Shown here: piece after piece, positions 11,984 to 32,161 of the stretch
Layout: the number at the start of each line of letters is the position of its first letter
Position numbering within the stretch: position 1 is the stretch's first letter
Assembly (NCBI GenBank): GCA_023717605.1
Contig: JAMQPH010000692.1
Coordinates: 1-36,520, forward strand
Direction of reading: 5' to 3'
Origin: Pyrinomonadaceae bacterium
Lineage (GTDB): Bacteria; Acidobacteriota; Blastocatellia; Pyrinomonadales; Pyrinomonadaceae
Length of the DNA: 36,520 bases
Notes under the pieces: generated by a model
Told to the model about the DNA's origin: nothing
The model's database searches: none
What the model saw: the letters and a program-made list of their open reading frames with translations, nothing else
Program-made: the position numbers and the translations under genes

Positions 11984-12063
11984 AGTGACAAGTGATAACT
12001 GACAAGTGACAGGAATCGGTTAGGCGTTCTTGTCGCTTGTCACTTGTTACCTGTCACTTTTCT
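11984..12063. repeat. Heptad-word inverted repeat A (PIN/TRAM-ispD junction)
   Basis: The left arm consists of seven-base words AGTGACA, AGTGATA, ACTGACA, AGTGACA (11984-12011). The right arm is made of CTTGTCG, CTTGTCA, CTTGTTA, CCTGTCA, CTTTTCT (12029-12063). Left 11984-12006 pairs with 12036-12058 in 19 of 23 positions. The element begins five bases after the stop of the upstream gene and its last word ends exactly before the ATG of ispD, leaving no Shine-Dalgarno sequence. Transcribed, it would form a long hairpin sequestering the ispD start region. Confidence 0.75.
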
Positions 12064-12756
12064 ATGAATGTTGCAATCATTGCTGCTGCCGGGCAGGGCA
12101 CTCGGATGGGCGGCAACCGGGCCAAGCAGTTTCTGGAACTCGCAGGCACACCGATCGTTTTCCACACGCTCAGATCCTTCGAGCTGTGTGATGCTATTCA
12201 AGAAATCATTCTAGTTTTACCAGCTGAGGACACAGCCGGCTTTCTGGCCATCGCGGAAAAGCACAGGTTGCGGAAGCTTTCGAAGATGGTTCCAGGAGGA
12301 ACTACTTGGGCCGAGTCTGTGCTAAAGGGACTGCTTGCGGTTCGCTCCGCTACGGCTGAAATCATTGCAGTACATGATGGTGTTCGTCCTTTTGTGACCG
12401 CAGACGAAATTACCCGGACCGTCAGGGCCGCGGAGGTGAACGAGGCTGCAATCCTGACCTCACCGGTGACCGATACTATCAAAGAGGTTAGCAATGGGTT
12501 GGTCGCAAGAACACTTCCTCGAGCAGCTTTGCGACGAGCCCTGACACCCCAGTGCTTTCGCTTTGAATTATTGCGAAGGGCCTACGATCAGATTGATGTC
12601 CTGGATCCTGAACTAACCGACGAGAGCTCACTCGTCGAACGACTGGGTGTCAAGGTGATCATCGTGGAAGGAAGTCCGCGGAATATTAAGATCACAGGGC
12701 CAGAAGATTTAGCGCTAGGGGAAGTGTTGATGAGGGAAGTGAGCTTTGAGCTTTGA
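12064..12756 (+). CDS. ispD: 2-C-methyl-D-erythritol 4-phosphate cytidylyltransferase
   Basis: IspD couples CTP to methylerythritol phosphate in the MEP route to isoprenoid precursors. ATG 12064 gives the family's normal N-terminus MNVAIIAAAGQGTRMGG, which holds the nucleotide-binding loop, and 230 residues; the in-frame codon at 12037 lies inside repeat A and is rejected. Other family landmarks are VHDGVRPFV (about residues 105-113), LTSPVTDTIKE and the C-terminal EGSPRNIKITGPEDLALGE. The last codons (SFEL and the stop) are written by heptad repeat B, so the natural C-terminus was probably replaced when that repeat arrived; the core domain ends before it. The gene is followed by ispF, the usual pairing. 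Confidence 0.93.
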   Translation: MNVAIIAAAGQGTRMGGNRAKQFLELAGTPIVFHTLRSFELCDAIQEIILVLPAEDTAGFLAIAEKHRLRKLSKMVPGGTTWAESVLKGLLAVRSATAEIIAVHDGVRPFVTADEITRTVRAAEVNEAAILTSPVTDTIKEVSNGLVARTLPRAALRRALTPQCFRFELLRRAYDQIDVLDPELTDESSLVERLGVKVIIVEGSPRNIKITGPEDLALGEVLMREVSFEL

Positions 12757-12879
12757 GCTTTGTACTTTGTTCCTTGTTCTCTGACCAAAGCGTACCTGCG
12801 GAGGATCAAACAACCAGTCAAGTTCAAAATACAAAGTACAAGGCACAAAGTTCAAAGCTCAAAGCACAAAGTTCAAATC
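12743..12879. repeat. Heptad-word inverted repeat B (ispD-ispF junction)
   Basis: The left arm is a run of seven-base words GCTTTGA, GCTTTGA, GCTTTGT, ACTTTGT, TCCTTGT (12743-12777). The right arm has eight words such as ACAAAGT, ACAAGGC, TCAAAGC (12824-12879). Left 12743-12776 pairs with 12832-12865 in 29 of 34 positions. The left arm overlaps the last codons and TGA of ispD (12754-12756). The right arm ends six bases before the ATG of ispF, again without a Shine-Dalgarno sequence. The unpaired middle (about 12785-12823) has no ORF. Confidence 0.75.
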
Positions 12880-13636: not shown

Positions 13637-14959
13637 TTGAGACCGCAAGACATCATTCGTAAGAAGCGCGACGGCGAACAACTGTTGCCCGCGGAGATCA
13701 ACTTCTTCATCGACGGGGTCACTCACGGCCTGATCGCCGACTACCAGATTAGCGCGTTGCTCATGGCTATCTACCTGAACGGCATGAATGACGCGGAGCA
13801 GCAGTGCCTGACAGAGGCGATGCTGCAATCGGGCAGCATCCTGGACTTTTCCGGTATTGCCAAACCAAAGGCAGATAAACATTCCACCGGAGGTGTTGGT
13901 GATAAAACTTCGCTGATAATAGCTCCGCTTGTAGCCGCTTGCGGAGTCTGCGTCCCGATGATCTCAGGTCGTGGCCTGGGCCACACTGGCGGGACGCTCG
14001 ATAAACTGGAATCAATTCCTGGATATCGAGTTGACCTTTCGGGGAGCGAGTTTCAAAAAATCCTCGAACAGGTAGGTTACGCGATGGCTGGCCAGACCGC
14101 GGAACTTGCGCCCGCCGATAAGAAGATGTACGCGCTGCGCGATGCGACCGCCACAGTCGAAGCAATTCCGCTGATCGTGGCGTCAATAATTTCCAAGAAG
14201 GGGGCGGCGGGCCTGGATGCCATGATAATAGACGTGAAGGTGGGGTCGGGCGCCTTCATGCGGGATGAAGAGCGTGCGCGGGCGCTGGCCCAGGCGTTGG
14301 TCAAGACGGGCAACTCTTGCGGTATTCGCACCCGGGCACTCTTGACCGATATGAACCAACCACTGGGATGCGCAGTTGGGAATTCCATTGAAGTCAAAGA
14401 GTGCATTGAGATATTGCGTGGCGAGTTCGCGCCAGGTGCTCTGCCAGTGCTCGATCTCTCCCTGGAACTGTCAGCTCACATGCTGGTTCTGGCCCACGTC
14501 GACGATTCACTCGACAAGGCCCGGCAACGTTTGCAGCGGGCCCTCGAATCAGGCGAAGCGCTCGAGCGTCTTCGGCAGAATGTCGCGGCGCAGGGTGGTG
14601 ATCCACGGGTTTGTGATGATCCGGGCGGGGTCCTTCCTTTAGTGAGCGAATCCTTTAAGGTAGAATCTCCGCGCCCTGGTTACATCACAGCTGTTGAGAC
14701 CACCGAAATCGGACATGCGATTGCAGCGCTCGGCGGTGGACGCGTGCGAATCGAAGACAAAATCGACGCGACCGTGGGGTTGATGTCGGAAGTCAAGATT
14801 GGCGATAAGGTGACTGGCGGTCAAACGCTGGGAGTGGTATATGCCCGCAATGAGTCCAGAGCCCAGGAAGCCGTCAGTCGGATTCAGCTGGCGTACCAGG
14901 TTGGTGAAGCATTCAAGGGGGACCTGCCAACGTTAATCAAGGAAGTAGTAAACGAATGA
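13637..14959 (+). CDS. pdp: Pyrimidine-nucleoside (thymidine) phosphorylase
   Basis: The enzyme splits uridine, deoxyuridine or thymidine with phosphate into base and (deoxy)ribose 1-phosphate. TTG 13637 gives the canonical start RPQDIIRKKRDGEQL and 440 residues, the normal length. The phosphate-binding part KHSTGGVGDKTSLIIAPL (about 79-96) and the family signature SGRGLGHTGGTLDKLESIPG (about 113-132) are intact. The C-terminal domain with IGHAIAALGGGRVR is also complete. The ribosome site is weak (GAGAAG). Its stop overlaps the ATG of the BMP lipoprotein by four bases (ATGA), so both are translated together. The choice between pdp and deoA is by resemblance to the Gram-positive type. Confidence 0.93.
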   Translation: MRPQDIIRKKRDGEQLLPAEINFFIDGVTHGLIADYQISALLMAIYLNGMNDAEQQCLTEAMLQSGSILDFSGIAKPKADKHSTGGVGDKTSLIIAPLVAACGVCVPMISGRGLGHTGGTLDKLESIPGYRVDLSGSEFQKILEQVGYAMAGQTAELAPADKKMYALRDATATVEAIPLIVASIISKKGAAGLDAMIIDVKVGSGAFMRDEERARALAQALVKTGNSCGIRTRALLTDMNQPLGCAVGNSIEVKECIEILRGEFAPGALPVLDLSLELSAHMLVLAHVDDSLDKARQRLQRALESGEALERLRQNVAAQGGDPRVCDDPGGVLPLVSESFKVESPRPGYITAVETTEIGHAIAALGGGRVRIEDKIDATVGLMSEVKIGDKVTGGQTLGVVYARNESRAQEAVSRIQLAYQVGEAFKGDLPTLIKEVVNE

Positions 14960-16026
14960 AGTTATGCCTTTGGTCTCTGTTGCTCTCAGTCTGTCTATTC
15001 GCTTTCTTTTCGTCTGGTTGTAATCGCGAGGGTTACGGTGCGGATGATAAATCGAAAGTTCGTGTCGGGATTGTTTTCGACATCGGCGGCAAAGATGATC
15101 GCTCGTTTAATGCGGCGGCGTGGGCCGGAGCCAAGTGTGCGGAAACTGGCAAGTGGCCCGACGGTTCAAGTTGTGGCAAACCCGCGCTGGGCATTGTGTT
15201 GCGTGATATTGAACCGGGTAATCCCACCTCCATCGAGCCGGCTATGCGCGCGTTTGCTGAGCGCGGATACGATCTGATCATTGGGATTGGCTTCGCGCAA
15301 ACACCTATCATCGAGTCGGTTGCCAAAGATTATCCCAACATCCGCTTTGCCGTAGTCGATGGTGTCAGTGATCTTCCCAATGTAGCGTCTTTGATTTTTA
15401 AAGAACACGAAGGCTCGTATCTGGTCGGGATGCTGGCAGCGAAAACGACTAAGACGGGTACGATTGGCTTTCTAGGCGGGATGGACATCGGCTTGATCCA
15501 TCGTTTTAAGGAAGGATATGAAGAAGGCGCCCGCGCGGTTAATCCCAACATCCGTGTGATACCAAACTACGTCGGTGTGACTGATGCAGCCTGGAACAAC
15601 CCCGGCAAGGGCAAGGAGATTGCCCTGGCGCAAATCAGCAAAGGCGCTGACGTGATCTTCACGGCAGCGGGTAATTCCGGTCTGGGGGCTTTTGACGCCG
15701 TCGAGCAGCAGGGAAAGCAAAACGGACACGCGACCCACTTCGTCATTGGTGTGGACTCAAATCAGAACATGGTTAAGCCAGGCTTTGTGCTGACGAGCAT
15801 GGTGAAACGTGTCGATAATGCTGTCTATGAAATCATCACAGACGTCGTGAACGGTAAGTTCAAAGCCGGCTTCCATGTGTACGGCCTGGAGAAGGACGGA
15901 GTCGGCTACTCGATGGATGATTACAACAAGGGACTGATCCCCGAAGAAGCTATCAAGCAAACCGAAGAAGCACGGCAGAAGATTATCAAAGGCGAGATCA
16001 AGGTGACGGATGCGATGACAAAATGA
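14956..16026 (+). CDS. BMP-family nucleoside-binding lipoprotein of an ABC transporter
   Basis: The 356-residue protein begins MKLCLWSLLLSVCLFAFF with lipobox FSSGC, so Cys22 should be lipidated and the protein anchored in the cell envelope. The mature part has the BMP (PnrA-like) fold: VRVGIVFDIGGKDDRSFNAA (34-53) is the family's first strand and ligand loop, then IGIGFAQTPIIESVAKDYP, TGTIGFLGGMDIGLIHRF, DVIFTAAGNSGLGAFDAVEQ and VIGVDSNQNM. PnrA relatives bind purine and pyrimidine nucleosides. Four-base overlap with the phosphorylase gene and downstream ABC genes support a nucleoside importer. The next gene in the transport unit is displaced by the S23 element. Confidence 0.92.
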   Translation: MKLCLWSLLLSVCLFAFFSSGCNREGYGADDKSKVRVGIVFDIGGKDDRSFNAAAWAGAKCAETGKWPDGSSCGKPALGIVLRDIEPGNPTSIEPAMRAFAERGYDLIIGIGFAQTPIIESVAKDYPNIRFAVVDGVSDLPNVASLIFKEHEGSYLVGMLAAKTTKTGTIGFLGGMDIGLIHRFKEGYEEGARAVNPNIRVIPNYVGVTDAAWNNPGKGKEIALAQISKGADVIFTAAGNSGLGAFDAVEQQGKQNGHATHFVIGVDSNQNMVKPGFVLTSMVKRVDNAVYEIITDVVNGKFKAGFHVYGLEKDGVGYSMDDYNKGLIPEEAIKQTEEARQKIIKGEIKVTDAMTK

Positions 16027-16027
16027 A

Positions 16028-16530
16028 TTTGGTCTTTGGCCTTTGGTCTTTGTTCTTTGATCAGGAATAATCTAACGGCATTATCAACTTAATCCGGAGG
16101 CCTCACCCCATGGAAAGAACAAATTTTGAGAAGCTGCAAGTCTACAAGTTATCGGAGAAACTATCGGATGATATCTGGAGGATAGTCATTCGGTGGGATT
16201 TCCTCGCCAAAGACACTGTGGGCAAACAATTAATACGAGCCGCCGACAGCATAGGTGCGAATATTGCAGAGGGTAGTGGTCGAGGAACCAACCCGGATCT
16301 GCGACGGTTTCTGAGAATCGCGCGCGGATCTTTATATGAAACACAGCACTGGCTACGCCGATCGTACAGAAGAAAGCTTTTAACGGAGAAGCAGGTTAAC
16401 GACCTTCTTCCAATCATTAAGGAGTTGACCCCTAAACTCAACGCCTACTTGCGTTCGATTGGCGCTCTTAAAACAAAACGGTCGGTCTCCTGATAACGGT
16501 AAGACCAAAGACCAAAGACCAAAGACCATT
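16028..16530. mobile_element. Heptad-word inverted-repeat element D enclosing an S23-type gene
   Basis: Left arm: five words TTTGGTC, TTTGGCC, TTTGGTC, TTTGTTC, TTTGATC (16028-16062). Right arm: GACCAAA three times then GACCATT (16503-16530). Left 16031-16057 pairs with right 16501-16527 at 25 of 27 positions. The about 500-base unit holds exactly one gene (16110-16493) with its own Shine-Dalgarno. It starts one base after the BMP stop codon and its right arm overlaps the TTG start of the ABC ATPase. This layout, an S23 gene between complementary ends, is that of intervening sequences in 23S rRNA, but here it sits between protein genes. No target-site duplication is evident. Confidence 0.65.
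16110..16493 (+). CDS. Four-helix-bundle protein of the S23 / 23S rRNA intervening-sequence family
   Basis: ATG 16110 with GGAGG at 16096-16100 gives 127 residues. The sequence has the family's landmarks: an opening [19 protein letters not shown] helix, [19 protein letters not shown] (about 42-60) and [18 protein letters not shown] (about 65-82), then a final long helix. Proteins of this family (TIGR02436) form four-helix bundles; members are encoded in intervening sequences of 23S rRNA genes in Leptospira and Coxiella, and a relative (bAvd) serves diversity-generating retroelements. The molecular role is unresolved. Here the gene lies inside the inverted-repeat element between the BMP and ABC genes and is not related to their function. 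No 23S rRNA or retroelement is present in the window. Confidence 0.88.
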
Positions 16531-18037
16531 GCTCGAATTAAGAAACATCACCAAACGCTTCGGGGCCGTGCTGGCAAACGACAAGGTCAGTATTGTCGTT
16601 AAGCCGGGGACGATTCATGCCATCGTGGGTGAAAATGGCGCCGGGAAGTCCACGGCGATGCGCATTGCTTATGGGTTTTACAAAGCTGATGAAGGTGAAA
16701 TCCTGGTCGACGGCCATGTGCACAACATCGAAACCCCTCACGATGCTATCGCCCTGGGAATTGGTATGGTCCACCAGCACTTTATGCTGGTCGACACGAT
16801 GACTGTGGCAGAGAACATTGTGTTGGGCGCTGAACCCGGCAGTGCCGTTGCGCTTGATCTTGCCAAAGCAAGTGTTGAGATTCGCCGGCTCTCGGAAGAA
16901 TTCAAGCTGGCCGTTAACCCGGGTGCTGTGATTGAACACTTGTCGGTTGGCCAGCAACAGCGCGTCGAACTGATGAAAGCGCTTTATCGTCACGCGCGCC
17001 TGCTGATCCTTGACGAACCCACGGCGGTGCTGACCCCACAGGAAGTCGAAGAGTTTTTCACCATCCTGCGAAGAATGCGTGAGCAGGGAAAGACCGTTGT
17101 AATAATCACGCACAAGCTGGCTGAAGTGCTCGCAATTTCGGACGAGGTTACTGTGATGCGGGACGGTCGTGTTGTCGGTCGTTTACAAACAAGTGAAACC
17201 AACGCCGCCGAACTGGCTCGATTGATGGTGGGCCGGGAAGTACTTTTACGCGTCGAAAAAACACCGGCCAAGACAGGAAGTGCCGAGTTGATTGTTCGGA
17301 ATCTCTCAGTTACGACCAGGGGTGGAGCTAAGCCGGTCAAGGACGTTTCGTTTGAAGTGCGCAAAGGCGAGATCTTGGGTATCGCCGGGGTCGAGGGGAA
17401 CGGCCAAACCGAGCTGATCGAAGCACTGGCCGGACTAATCAGCCCATCGCAGCTTTCGGGTGAGATCCGAATTGAAGATCGGGACATCACGAAAGAAGGT
17501 GCGCGACTGCGGCGCGAGTTGGGGATTGCTCATATCCCGGAGGATCGACATCGACGTGGTTTGCTGCTCGAATTCGATCTCGCGGAGAACTCGATTCTCG
17601 GTGTTCACTATCGCCCGCCTATCGTTGCTTACGCCGGCACGTTCCTGGACAACGGGGCTATTCGCAGGCGCACTAAGGAAATTATCGAAGGCTTCGACGT
17701 CCGCCCGGCAAATCCCGATCTGCCCGCGCGCGTTCTCTCGGGCGGCAACCAGCAAAAACTGATCATTGGCCGAGAGTTCAAAGTTGATCCCAAGCTCTTG
17801 CTGGTCTCACAGCCCACTCGAGGCGTTGATATCGGGGCCATCGAGTTCATACATCGCAAGCTGGTTGGTCTGCGCGACTCGGGCTGCGCGGTGCTACTAG
17901 TGTCAGCCGAGCTTGAAGAGGTGACGTCGCTCTCCGATCGCTTGCTGATCATTCACGAAGGACGCATCGTCGGGGAAGTTGACCCGAAGGTCGCAACCAT
18001 CGAGGAGATCGGGCTGCTCATGACGCGGGGACACTAA
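16529..18037 (+). CDS. Nucleoside ABC transporter, double ATP-binding subunit
   Basis: The 502-residue protein has two fused ATPase domains. Domain one: Walker [10 protein letters not shown] (about 34-42), signature [10 protein letters not shown], Walker [12 protein letters not shown], then H-loop ITHKL. Domain two: degenerate Walker [10 protein letters not shown], signature [15 protein letters not shown] and [15 protein letters not shown], where Gln-Pro replaces the catalytic Asp-Glu, as is usual in the second half of ribose/nucleoside importers. It powers the two permeases that follow. The reading begins at TTG 16529 ([13 protein letters not shown]), which overlaps the right arm of element D; no ribosome site precedes it, so initiation must be leaderless-like, coupled or weakened. 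No better start exists upstream in frame. Confidence 0.92.
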
Positions 18038-18161
18038 TTCTTTGTACTGGGTACTTTGTTCTTTGTACTTTGTATTTCTTCAAGGTCTTGAAAGGCGCAA
18101 CTGCAACGGCACAGAGAACAAAGCACAAAGCACAAAGTCCCAAGTTCTAAGTACAAAGCTT
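18038..18161. repeat. Heptad-word inverted repeat E (ABC ATPase-permease junction)
   Basis: The left arm begins at the first base after the ATPase stop: TTCTTTG, TACTGGG, TACTTTG, TTCTTTG, TACTTTG, TATTTCT (18038-18079). The right arm holds AGAGAAC, AAAGCAC, AAAGCAC, AAAGTCC, CAAGTTC, TAAGTAC (18113-18154). The arms pair over about 30 positions with one gap of eight bases. Words are close to those of elements B and D (CTTTGNN). Thirty bases remain before the permease ATG at 18192, in which CTAGGATC is the only possible ribosome site. Confidence 0.72.
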
Positions 18162-18191
18162 TATAGGACTGAGATCTAGGATCGAAATCCA

Positions 18192-32097: not shown

Positions 32098-32161
32098 TTG
32101 CCGATTTTAGGGTCGGCAGGAAGCAAATTGGCAATCGGAAATCGGCAATTGGAAATAGAAG
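32097..32161. repeat. Heptad-word inverted repeat H (sufS-sufU junction)
   Basis: The right arm is five seven-base words in register (32126-32160): AATTGGC, AATCGGA, AATCGGC, AATTGGA, AATAGAA. One G follows, then the ATG of sufU. The left arm overlaps the last base of the sufS stop; ATTGCCGATTT (32097-32107) pairs perfectly with AAATCGGCAAT (32139-32149). The left arm is shorter than in the other elements. No Shine-Dalgarno sequence is left before sufU. Confidence 0.68.

Follow-up and report, generated by a model that had tools for sequence, protein, structure and literature searches.

The closest described systems to the locus reported here are the intervening sequences (IVSs) of rRNA genes, in which an S23 ORF lies between complementary ends. 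In the 23S rRNA IVS of Coxiella burnetii, as described in the portions of PMC4990558 that deal with the element, three tandem GACAGAT heptads precede the S23p ORF in a copy number that varies among strains, and a 28-bp terminal stem is present, with RNase III cutting where the first repeat starts. Excision by RNase III is shown there for the rRNA version, and earlier suggestions of IVS mobility are cited. The same portions state that the Coxiella S23p is probably not produced in vivo and that its ORF is decaying, which argues against a need for the protein there, and that the protein of structure 2gsc is a homopentamer. PF05635, the S23 family, is also named in 16S and 23S rRNA insertions of CPR bacteria in the relevant part of PMC11270868.

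Heptamer repeats have been reported in Geobacter (PMC2700814), Xanthomonas and Nostoc (PMC4692102) and Beggiatoaceae (PMC4679880). The sections of these papers that treat the repeats discuss them as regulatory, and PMC4692102 describes them as generally not associated with mobile elements. The term "S23" has zero occurrences in the available texts of the three papers. Among the open-access full-text matches listed, none links S23 to heptamer arms outside rRNA, and the subscription literature is mostly uncovered by that search. Short hairpins are likewise characteristic of REPIN/RAYT systems and MITEs, in which copies lacking a gene may rely on a protein encoded elsewhere. Finally, the relevant part of PMC10053308 calls PF05635 and the Avd protein of diversity-generating retroelements homologous.

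An S23 gene between two ABC transporter genes

The window, by which we mean the whole 36,520-nt stretch of DNA analysed here, is contig C207 of a 7.4-Mb draft genome of a Pyrinomonadaceae bacterium. It contains a gene for an S23-type four-helix-bundle protein of 127 aa (positions 16110–16493, + strand), which fills the gap between a BMP/PnrA-like ABC substrate-binding protein gene (14956–16026, + strand; PF02608, E 7.1e-65) and its ABC transporter ATPase gene (16529–18037, + strand; PF00005, E 9.9e-48), all three running in the same direction, with two permease genes further downstream. The protein belongs to the S23 family by both curated cut-offs: it matches PF05635 at E 3.7e-29 (101.5 bits against a cut-off of 33.8) and TIGR02436 at 95.2 bits against 24. 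PF05635 was the only family found in the profile search of this ORF, with no catalytic or nuclease domain, and the second ORF between the arms is a 99-aa antisense frame that overlaps the S23 ORF. Its sequence relatives in the PDB, 2gsc and 2rld, have five chains each, and these five-chain structures add to the likeness to Avd drawn in that part of PMC10053308. A scan of five neighbouring genes in the window found no reverse transcriptase, which sets the locus apart from a diversity-generating retroelement.

The gene is enclosed by two heptad arms. The left arm (16028–16062, + strand) begins at the second base past the stop codon of the upstream gene and reads, in order, TTTGGTC, TTTGGCC, TTTGGTC, TTTGTTC and TTTGATC; the right arm (16499–16531, + strand) consists of complementary GACCAAA repeats and extends to the TTG called as the start of the ATPase gene. 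Positions 16030–16057 and 16501–16528 are 93% complementary over 28 nt as GGTCTTT/AAAGACC heptads, which confirms the layout first proposed for the locus, an S23 gene inside a heptad inverted repeat between two ABC transporter genes. The flanks have an inverted-repeat score of 22, compared with a maximum of 13 in 2000 Markov shuffles of the flanks, and among 711 placements along the window a score of 22 was reached solely by the placement on the S23 element itself. With no more than 2 mismatches allowed, the window holds 8 occurrences of the motif GACCAAAGACCAAA against an expectation of 0.36, and 7 of the 8 are in the two arms.

The window element thus resembles the rRNA IVS in having an S23 ORF between complementary ends and, as in the part of PMC4990558 on Coxiella, heptads, but it lies between the BMP and ABC ATPase genes rather than inside an rRNA gene; a search of the same draft genome for a 23S rRNA gene, and so for an IVS within it, gave no match. 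The elements described below differ from rRNA IVSs in that they sit in ordinary gene neighbourhoods, are present many times in a genome, have a heptad word specific to each locus and occur also as gene-less derivatives. They are like published heptamer repeats in having seven-base units, mostly intergenic positions, many copies and some inverted pairs, and unlike those repeats, described without S23, their arrays are the arms of an S23 element. Compared to REPIN/RAYT or IS200/IS605, there is no Y1 (HUH) transposase between the arms of the window element, whose ORF matches PF05635 only; S23 is the sole gene, and the arms are tandem heptads of changing sequence.

The window also contains gene-less heptad hairpins, each with its own word and without strand assignment: TACTTTG at 18035–18163, between the ATPase and permease genes, AGCTTTG at about 12738–12875, and TTGTCAC at 11984–12062. 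In congeners, the 18035–18163 hairpin has a changed word or is missing. The initial annotation counted four gene-less junctions with such ends; we find these three clear hairpins and one lone array (AATTGGCAATCGGAAATCGG, 32126–32145) with no clear partner, possibly a half-lost hairpin. For one further array candidate, near position 2871, an inverted partner was sought and none was found.

Using orthologs of the ATPase gene, we compared the junction in 14 genomes of the genus, including the window's own. S23 is present at the BMP/ABC junction in 10 of the 14: carriers are G000, G005, G007, G010, G011, G013 and G014, G006 carries it up to a contig edge, and the copies in G001 and G004 have broken frames. 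Three genomes have the junction without S23: G009 shows a 12-nt gap there, G012 has a different, short hairpin, and in G008 another repeat type is found. This last junction (L051) holds a long palindromic repeat of the GGGAGCGCGGGCATCCTGCCCGC type, so the gap attracts more than one kind of repeat. In G017, from another genus, only the first S23 codons survive, inside heptad arms. G015 was left aside, the sequence upstream of its ATPase locus being unrelated. Its ATPase gene is present twice, whole on one contig and in part at the end of another (L057, G015:C24; L066, G015:C9); the whole copy sits behind an unrelated GC-rich gene, and the duplication is a possible assembly fault. From the pattern of presence and absence across the 14 genomes, we read the window S23 copy as an old, mostly inherited resident, with the empty congeners best explained as losses.

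The arms of the orthologous copies differ in word type (GGTCTTT, AGTACTT, TTGTCAG) but change together. Each element's arm matches its own partner with a mean of 20.3, versus 11.7 with the arms of other copies, and the permutation p of about 1e-4 across 9 elements, like the other p-value here, ignores relatedness. This test took 9 of 10 elements, omitting L053 for its start-codon pattern; L049 was not entered, being at a contig edge, and the G017 remnant is included, with two arm windows that overlap. At the next junction, own arms of the gene-less hairpin likewise match best (9 hairpins, p 0.001). S23 itself is under purifying selection in two of ten ortholog pairs, with dN/dS of 0.18 and 0.09, the other eight pairs being saturated in dS. 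A gene conserved vertically with repeats that vary independently had been named as the outcome that would speak against an element at this site; the vertical inheritance is largely what we observe, and the independent variation of the arms is not. Empty BMP–ABC junctions, which the initial annotation proposed to align, do exist in G009, G012 and G008, but they read as losses and not as states that preceded an insertion.

Inverted heptad repeats around S23 genes

To survey S23 genes in general, we scored the best inverted repeat between the ≤300 bp upstream and ≤300 bp downstream of each gene, with a threshold of 14, and used the same loci displaced by 800 or 1100 bp as controls. Distinct hits were counted if they scored 40 bits or more and covered 60 or more profile positions; 11 more were dropped for short flanks. 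A score of at least 14 was reached at 85 of 95 S23 genes in the genus group compared with 0 of 349 displaced controls, at 19 of 25 in the class set compared with 1 of 90, and at 48 of 75 in the cross-phylum set compared with 0 of 271. The 95 genes of the genus group (loci numbered below L128, including a few class loci fetched with the ATPase query) are not independent, since orthologous copies of one insertion are counted several times. For the cross-phylum set we took the best 80 of the 582 confirmed matches listed in one scan, so it is not a random sample; a few of its loci are mutually orthologous, as for L170 and L177, which have a common upstream tRNA pair. Below the threshold were 10 of the 95 genus-group genes and 27 of the 75 cross-phylum genes. 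In a similar run, the cross-phylum loci that passed represented about a dozen phyla by record titles, and L221, a locus from Methanophagales, has a pair of period 7 that is weaker, with a score of 13. An earlier run with laxer scoring, in which the controls were random segments of six control stretches, gave scores of at least 18 in 93 of 107 cases versus 29 of 600. The enrichment of such repeats just outside S23 genes, on which the element reading had been staked, is therefore borne out by all three sets.

The arms have a period of 7 in 119 of the 133 threshold-passing loci of the genus group and cross-phylum set together (76 and 43, respectively), and in 16 loci of the class set. Arms of period 8 were found at 9 genus-group and 3 cross-phylum loci and at none of the class set, among them L025, L038, L089, L090, L097 and L228; arms of period 9 were found at three class loci (L139, L144, L148) and at none in the other two sets, and two further cross-phylum loci have other periods.

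We observe that the arms are specific to S23 among small genes. In 679 other ORFs of 80–233 codons, from stretches chosen regardless of S23, 8 reached the threshold, of which one, an ATP synthase subunit, has period 7 with long and irregular arms. Six of the 8 were checked for identity, and besides this subunit they include three Y1 transposases and one IS1595-type transposase, with their own inverted repeats. The S23 ORFs in the same stretches reached the threshold in 3 of 4 cases.

S23 is present in 15 of 16 genomes of the genus and in 122 of 147 in the class sample. In the genome of the window, 15 TIGR02436 match rows are scattered through the assembly; two of these rows are halves of one gene. 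By eye, 10 of the 12 S23 genes with both flanks have inverted heptad arms (the exceptions are L012 and L014), with a separate heptad word at each locus. NADH dehydrogenase genes flank the S23 element in L010 (nuoI/nuoJ, by reading), and L028, L092, L100, L107, L112 and L113 apparently occupy that site as well, with similar left flanks and, in most, similar arms.

rRNA had been suggested to be merely one landing site of these genes, and this agrees with our survey: an Rfam scan of the 80 cross-phylum S23 loci, which were found with non-rRNA S23 queries so that rRNA ones may be under-represented, gave an rRNA match at 0 of 80, while GACAGAT heptads are described for the Coxiella IVS in the portion of PMC4990558 cited above. 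The scan returned 5 matches, four tRNAs and one pan motif, and no group II intron.

The orientation of the genes is strongly uniform. With strand calls based on the longest open frame (87 genus loci and 93 in the wider set), S23 and the upstream gene run the same way in 133 of the 144 cases that were called, and '++' gene-strand pairs number 97 versus 3 for '--'. This orientation fits an expression of S23 by read-through from the upstream gene. The RNA of the window element is predicted to fold with its arms paired (z of −4.7 against 100 shuffles). A sense-strand wobble signature was not found: the ratio of G·U-compatible to incompatible transitions in the arms is 92:93 in the genus and 117:190 in the wider set. 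Since G·U mismatches are not favoured, we do not claim selection on a sense RNA stem, and a functional sense stem is unsupported by this test. The mismatches of the wider set lean to wobbles on the strand opposite S23 (190 vs 117; 93 vs 92 in the genus), which may reflect an antisense-strand structure or mutation bias. Basic charge is a weak sign of nucleic-acid binding here, the median pI of 206 matched S23 regions being 8.2, with 58% above 8.

Insertion polymorphism and gene-less hairpins

S23 relatives turned up in 34 plasmid records when PLSDB was searched at the protein level; judging by record names, all except two are cyanobacterial. Among the cyanobacterial plasmids, the S23 element is present or absent at five sites. 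Site 1 is filled, between two genes, by an element with CAGAATT/CAGGAGT heptads in Trichormus variabilis plasmid C (L260), in the identical strain 0441 record and in Scytonema NIES-4073 (L268). Six plasmid records have the site without the element, with both flanks matching at 97.5–98% identity; three of the six seem to be the plasmid of a single organism recorded under several names. A clean short gap is seen in the two that were read base by base (L264, L265). At this site, the copy in Nostoc C052 pC052_E (L266) is missing the right arm as well as the 3′ part of S23, and Brasilonema pBOCT2 (L267) has a gene-less hairpin with the same word. Site 2 is filled in two plasmids and empty in C057 p057_A (95% identity) and UHCC 0926 (76.5%), while ATCC 53789 (L270) has a gene-less heptad hairpin of similar word there and C057 p057_H (L272) has a different hairpin. 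Related plasmids also differ in whether sites 3, 4 and 5 hold the element. Wherever a locus was read base by base, the S23 element fills a gap between two genes.

Relatives of the site 1 element with 77–83% identity are found at two other sites, one in H82 and one in H84 and H85, which are one site in two plasmids. One element family therefore occupies three sites, and since nothing outside the element matches between them, the arms and the gene travel together. The S23 gene and its arms thus form a unit that is present or absent at given sites and dispersed among the plasmids; together with the flank counts, this upholds the proposal that gene and heptad inverted repeat belong to one another. 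Insertion polymorphism of the sort expected of a transposable element is found in the cyanobacterial plasmids and not for the window copy. An identical S23 on two Calothrix plasmids (H1, H2) was set aside as evidence of transposition because the surrounding stretch is also common to both. The plasmid elements share tandem 7-bp units with the cyanobacterial heptamer repeats known as STRR sequences, a likeness that concerns the length of the unit.

Filled site 1 has GTAAT, or GTAATTA with one mismatch, repeated on both sides. Flanking duplications of 5–7 bp at site 1, about 5 bp at site 3 (confounded by the arm) and 3 bp at site 5 were observed, and none was clear at sites 2 and 4. A target duplication of fixed length is not established, and no insertion chemistry follows from duplications that are short and inconsistent. 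Derivation of the heptad word from the target was rejected, as the word travels with the element (L260, L273, L274). One S23 query protein had no match in 50,697 phage records. In Pseudanabaena galeata plasmid pPg_01 (L263), cas6 and cas4 are the neighbours of an S23 gene that has very long arrays of AGCTAAA/AGCCAAA heptads on both sides; S23's protein domain is also named in a metagenome paper on cas genes (PMC3936711).

Gene-less hairpins also appear as insertions. In Nostoc N6 (L275), a gene-less hairpin with the arms of site 1 interrupts an S23 gene and is missing in the ortholog L274, and near-copies of it are present in three other plasmids (L276–L278), so hairpins of this family, which share these arms, have inserted while carrying no S23 themselves. 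The four hairpins, all in Nostocales plasmids, are closely similar and about 180–220 bp long, and ATAA stands directly after each of them, a possible target preference. Some gene-less hairpins likely arose from S23 elements by deletion, as at L058, where a residual S23 start is found within heptad arms, and in the truncated L266. With the gene-less copies at sites that elsewhere hold intact elements (L267, L270), this agrees with the earlier view that gene-less hairpins can be derivatives.

In 400 kb of congener G015, we found 93 period-7 arrays compared with 2 in a Markov shuffle and 81 of period 14 compared with 3, other periods from 4 to 15 giving at most 17, and 30 of the 32 inverted array pairs are gene-less, with loops of 11–156 nt. 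Of 12 sampled genomes with at least 5 S23 genes, 7 have heptad hairpins, and the 8 genomes with one S23 gene or none showed no hairpin in samples totalling about 0.7 Mb. The samples of G084, G076, G081 and G060 (about 100 kb each) and of G008 (20 kb), which have 5–17 S23 genes, contained no hairpin. Across these small samples, and without phylogenetic correction, S23 number correlates with hairpins (Spearman 0.59) and with arrays (0.65). A link of gene-less words to S23 words of the same genome was rejected on the G015 comparison, in which the gene-less words resembled the S23 words of that genome no more than they resembled the S23 words of congeners. Three Y1 transposase ORFs with their own inverted repeats occur in genomes of the class (L254, 11313–11765; L331, 10821–11411; L361, 7348–7872), and we consider these transposases candidates for a trans-acting enzyme.

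The S23 element and competing explanations

The whole of these observations is, with good probability, best explained by one mobile element of about 0.4–0.5 kb consisting of the S23 gene and its two complementary heptad arms, and rRNA IVSs look like the best-known landing site of this element. The element would be transcribed by read-through from the upstream gene, and in the mRNA the arms would pair as a long stem around the S23 message. RNase III could excise this stem, as it does in rRNA IVSs, which would make an intergenic insertion tolerable. More tentatively, the S23 protein may bind the stem, as RNA or as single-stranded DNA, and may help a trans-acting enzyme to insert both its own copies and gene-less hairpins; a solved relative forms a ring of five, and Avd, a homologue of S23, works with a reverse transcriptase. 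One arm would template the repair of the other across the hairpin, and slippage would spread units within an arm, as expected from heptad words that change in both arms together. The initial annotation had suggested for the S23 family a role in element mobility or hairpin handling; we infer such a role as well, and S23 as a mobility factor is the most interesting and the least tested step, which we put forward with less weight than the rest.

S23 could instead be a passenger: a transposase unrelated to it, of the Y1/RAYT or another type, would move the hairpin, and S23 would have been captured and kept for a task such as RNA processing. Gene-less hairpins do outnumber S23 elements in G015 (30 of 32 paired arrays), L275–L278 were inserted with no S23 in cis, S23 has no nuclease domain, the same class has Y1 transposase ORFs with their own inverted repeats, including one in G015, and the Coxiella S23p seems dispensable from the portion of PMC4990558 that concerns it. 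We nevertheless regard this as rather doubtful, since S23 is the sole small gene found in heptad arms, in many phyla and with a single weak case among 679 other ORFs, is under purifying selection in two ortholog pairs, and no hairpin was seen in what was sampled of the 8 genomes that have one S23 or none. Movement through RNA is another alternative: the excised hairpin RNA, bound by S23 in the fashion of Avd, would be copied by a reverse transcriptase resident in the host, and the copy would be inserted in sense where a junction is transcribed. The strong sense orientation (97 vs 3), the homology of PF05635 to Avd (PMC10053308, in part) and the RNase III excision of the rRNA version (PMC4990558, likewise) all fit this route. 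However, selection for expression could equally produce the orientation, the arms show no wobble tolerance in the sense RNA, the five window neighbours scanned include no reverse transcriptase, and the sole truncated copy read, L266, is without its 3′ part, so that we consider the route unlikely.

It is very improbable that the heptad hairpins belong to the host as a regulatory or terminator-like feature and that S23 genes merely gather in the same gaps. The hairpins do sit between stop and start codons, and similar repeats are discussed as regulatory in the relevant sections of PMC2700814, PMC4679880 and PMC4692102, but displaced controls at the same loci are almost all negative (0/349, 1/90, 0/271), arms and S23 occur together at different sites, and the clean empty sites that were read are without both arms and S23, which makes the idea already hard to hold for the plasmid sites. 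For the window locus alone, it is about evenly balanced whether mobility is over, the gene being vertically inherited and the empty congeners being losses. The orthologous S23 in 10 of 14 genus genomes, the remnant in another genus and the low dN/dS values speak for this, and it leaves the plasmid polymorphisms and the 15 scattered match rows of the own genome unexplained; it is compatible with the mobile S23 element as the reading for the family as a whole.

A wider version of the mobile-element reading is possible, though we hold it at somewhat less than even confidence. The S23 element would then represent a domain-wide class with no recognisable transposase or recombinase, a hairpin with self-renewing heptad arms and an Avd-like S23 ring that recruits a host enzyme, either RNase III with a reverse transcriptase or a single-strand DNA enzyme. 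The rRNA IVSs and the cyanobacterial, Geobacter, Xanthomonas and Beggiatoaceae heptamer repeats would all be footprints of this class.

S23 genes have long been catalogued as oddities of rRNA, and the heptamer repeats of several phyla have been left unexplained or taken as possibly regulatory; tying the two together makes both testable. S23 elements are small and common, and they are polymorphic in cyanobacterial plasmids, and a package that inserts into intergenic gaps may house bacterial repeats that have long lacked an explanation. The drift of their sequence also poses the question of how paired arms stay matched as they change. If S23 proves to be a mobility factor, then this would be DNA that spreads by means of a hairpin and a ring protein without a known catalytic domain, and an evolutionary setting would be suggested for Avd.
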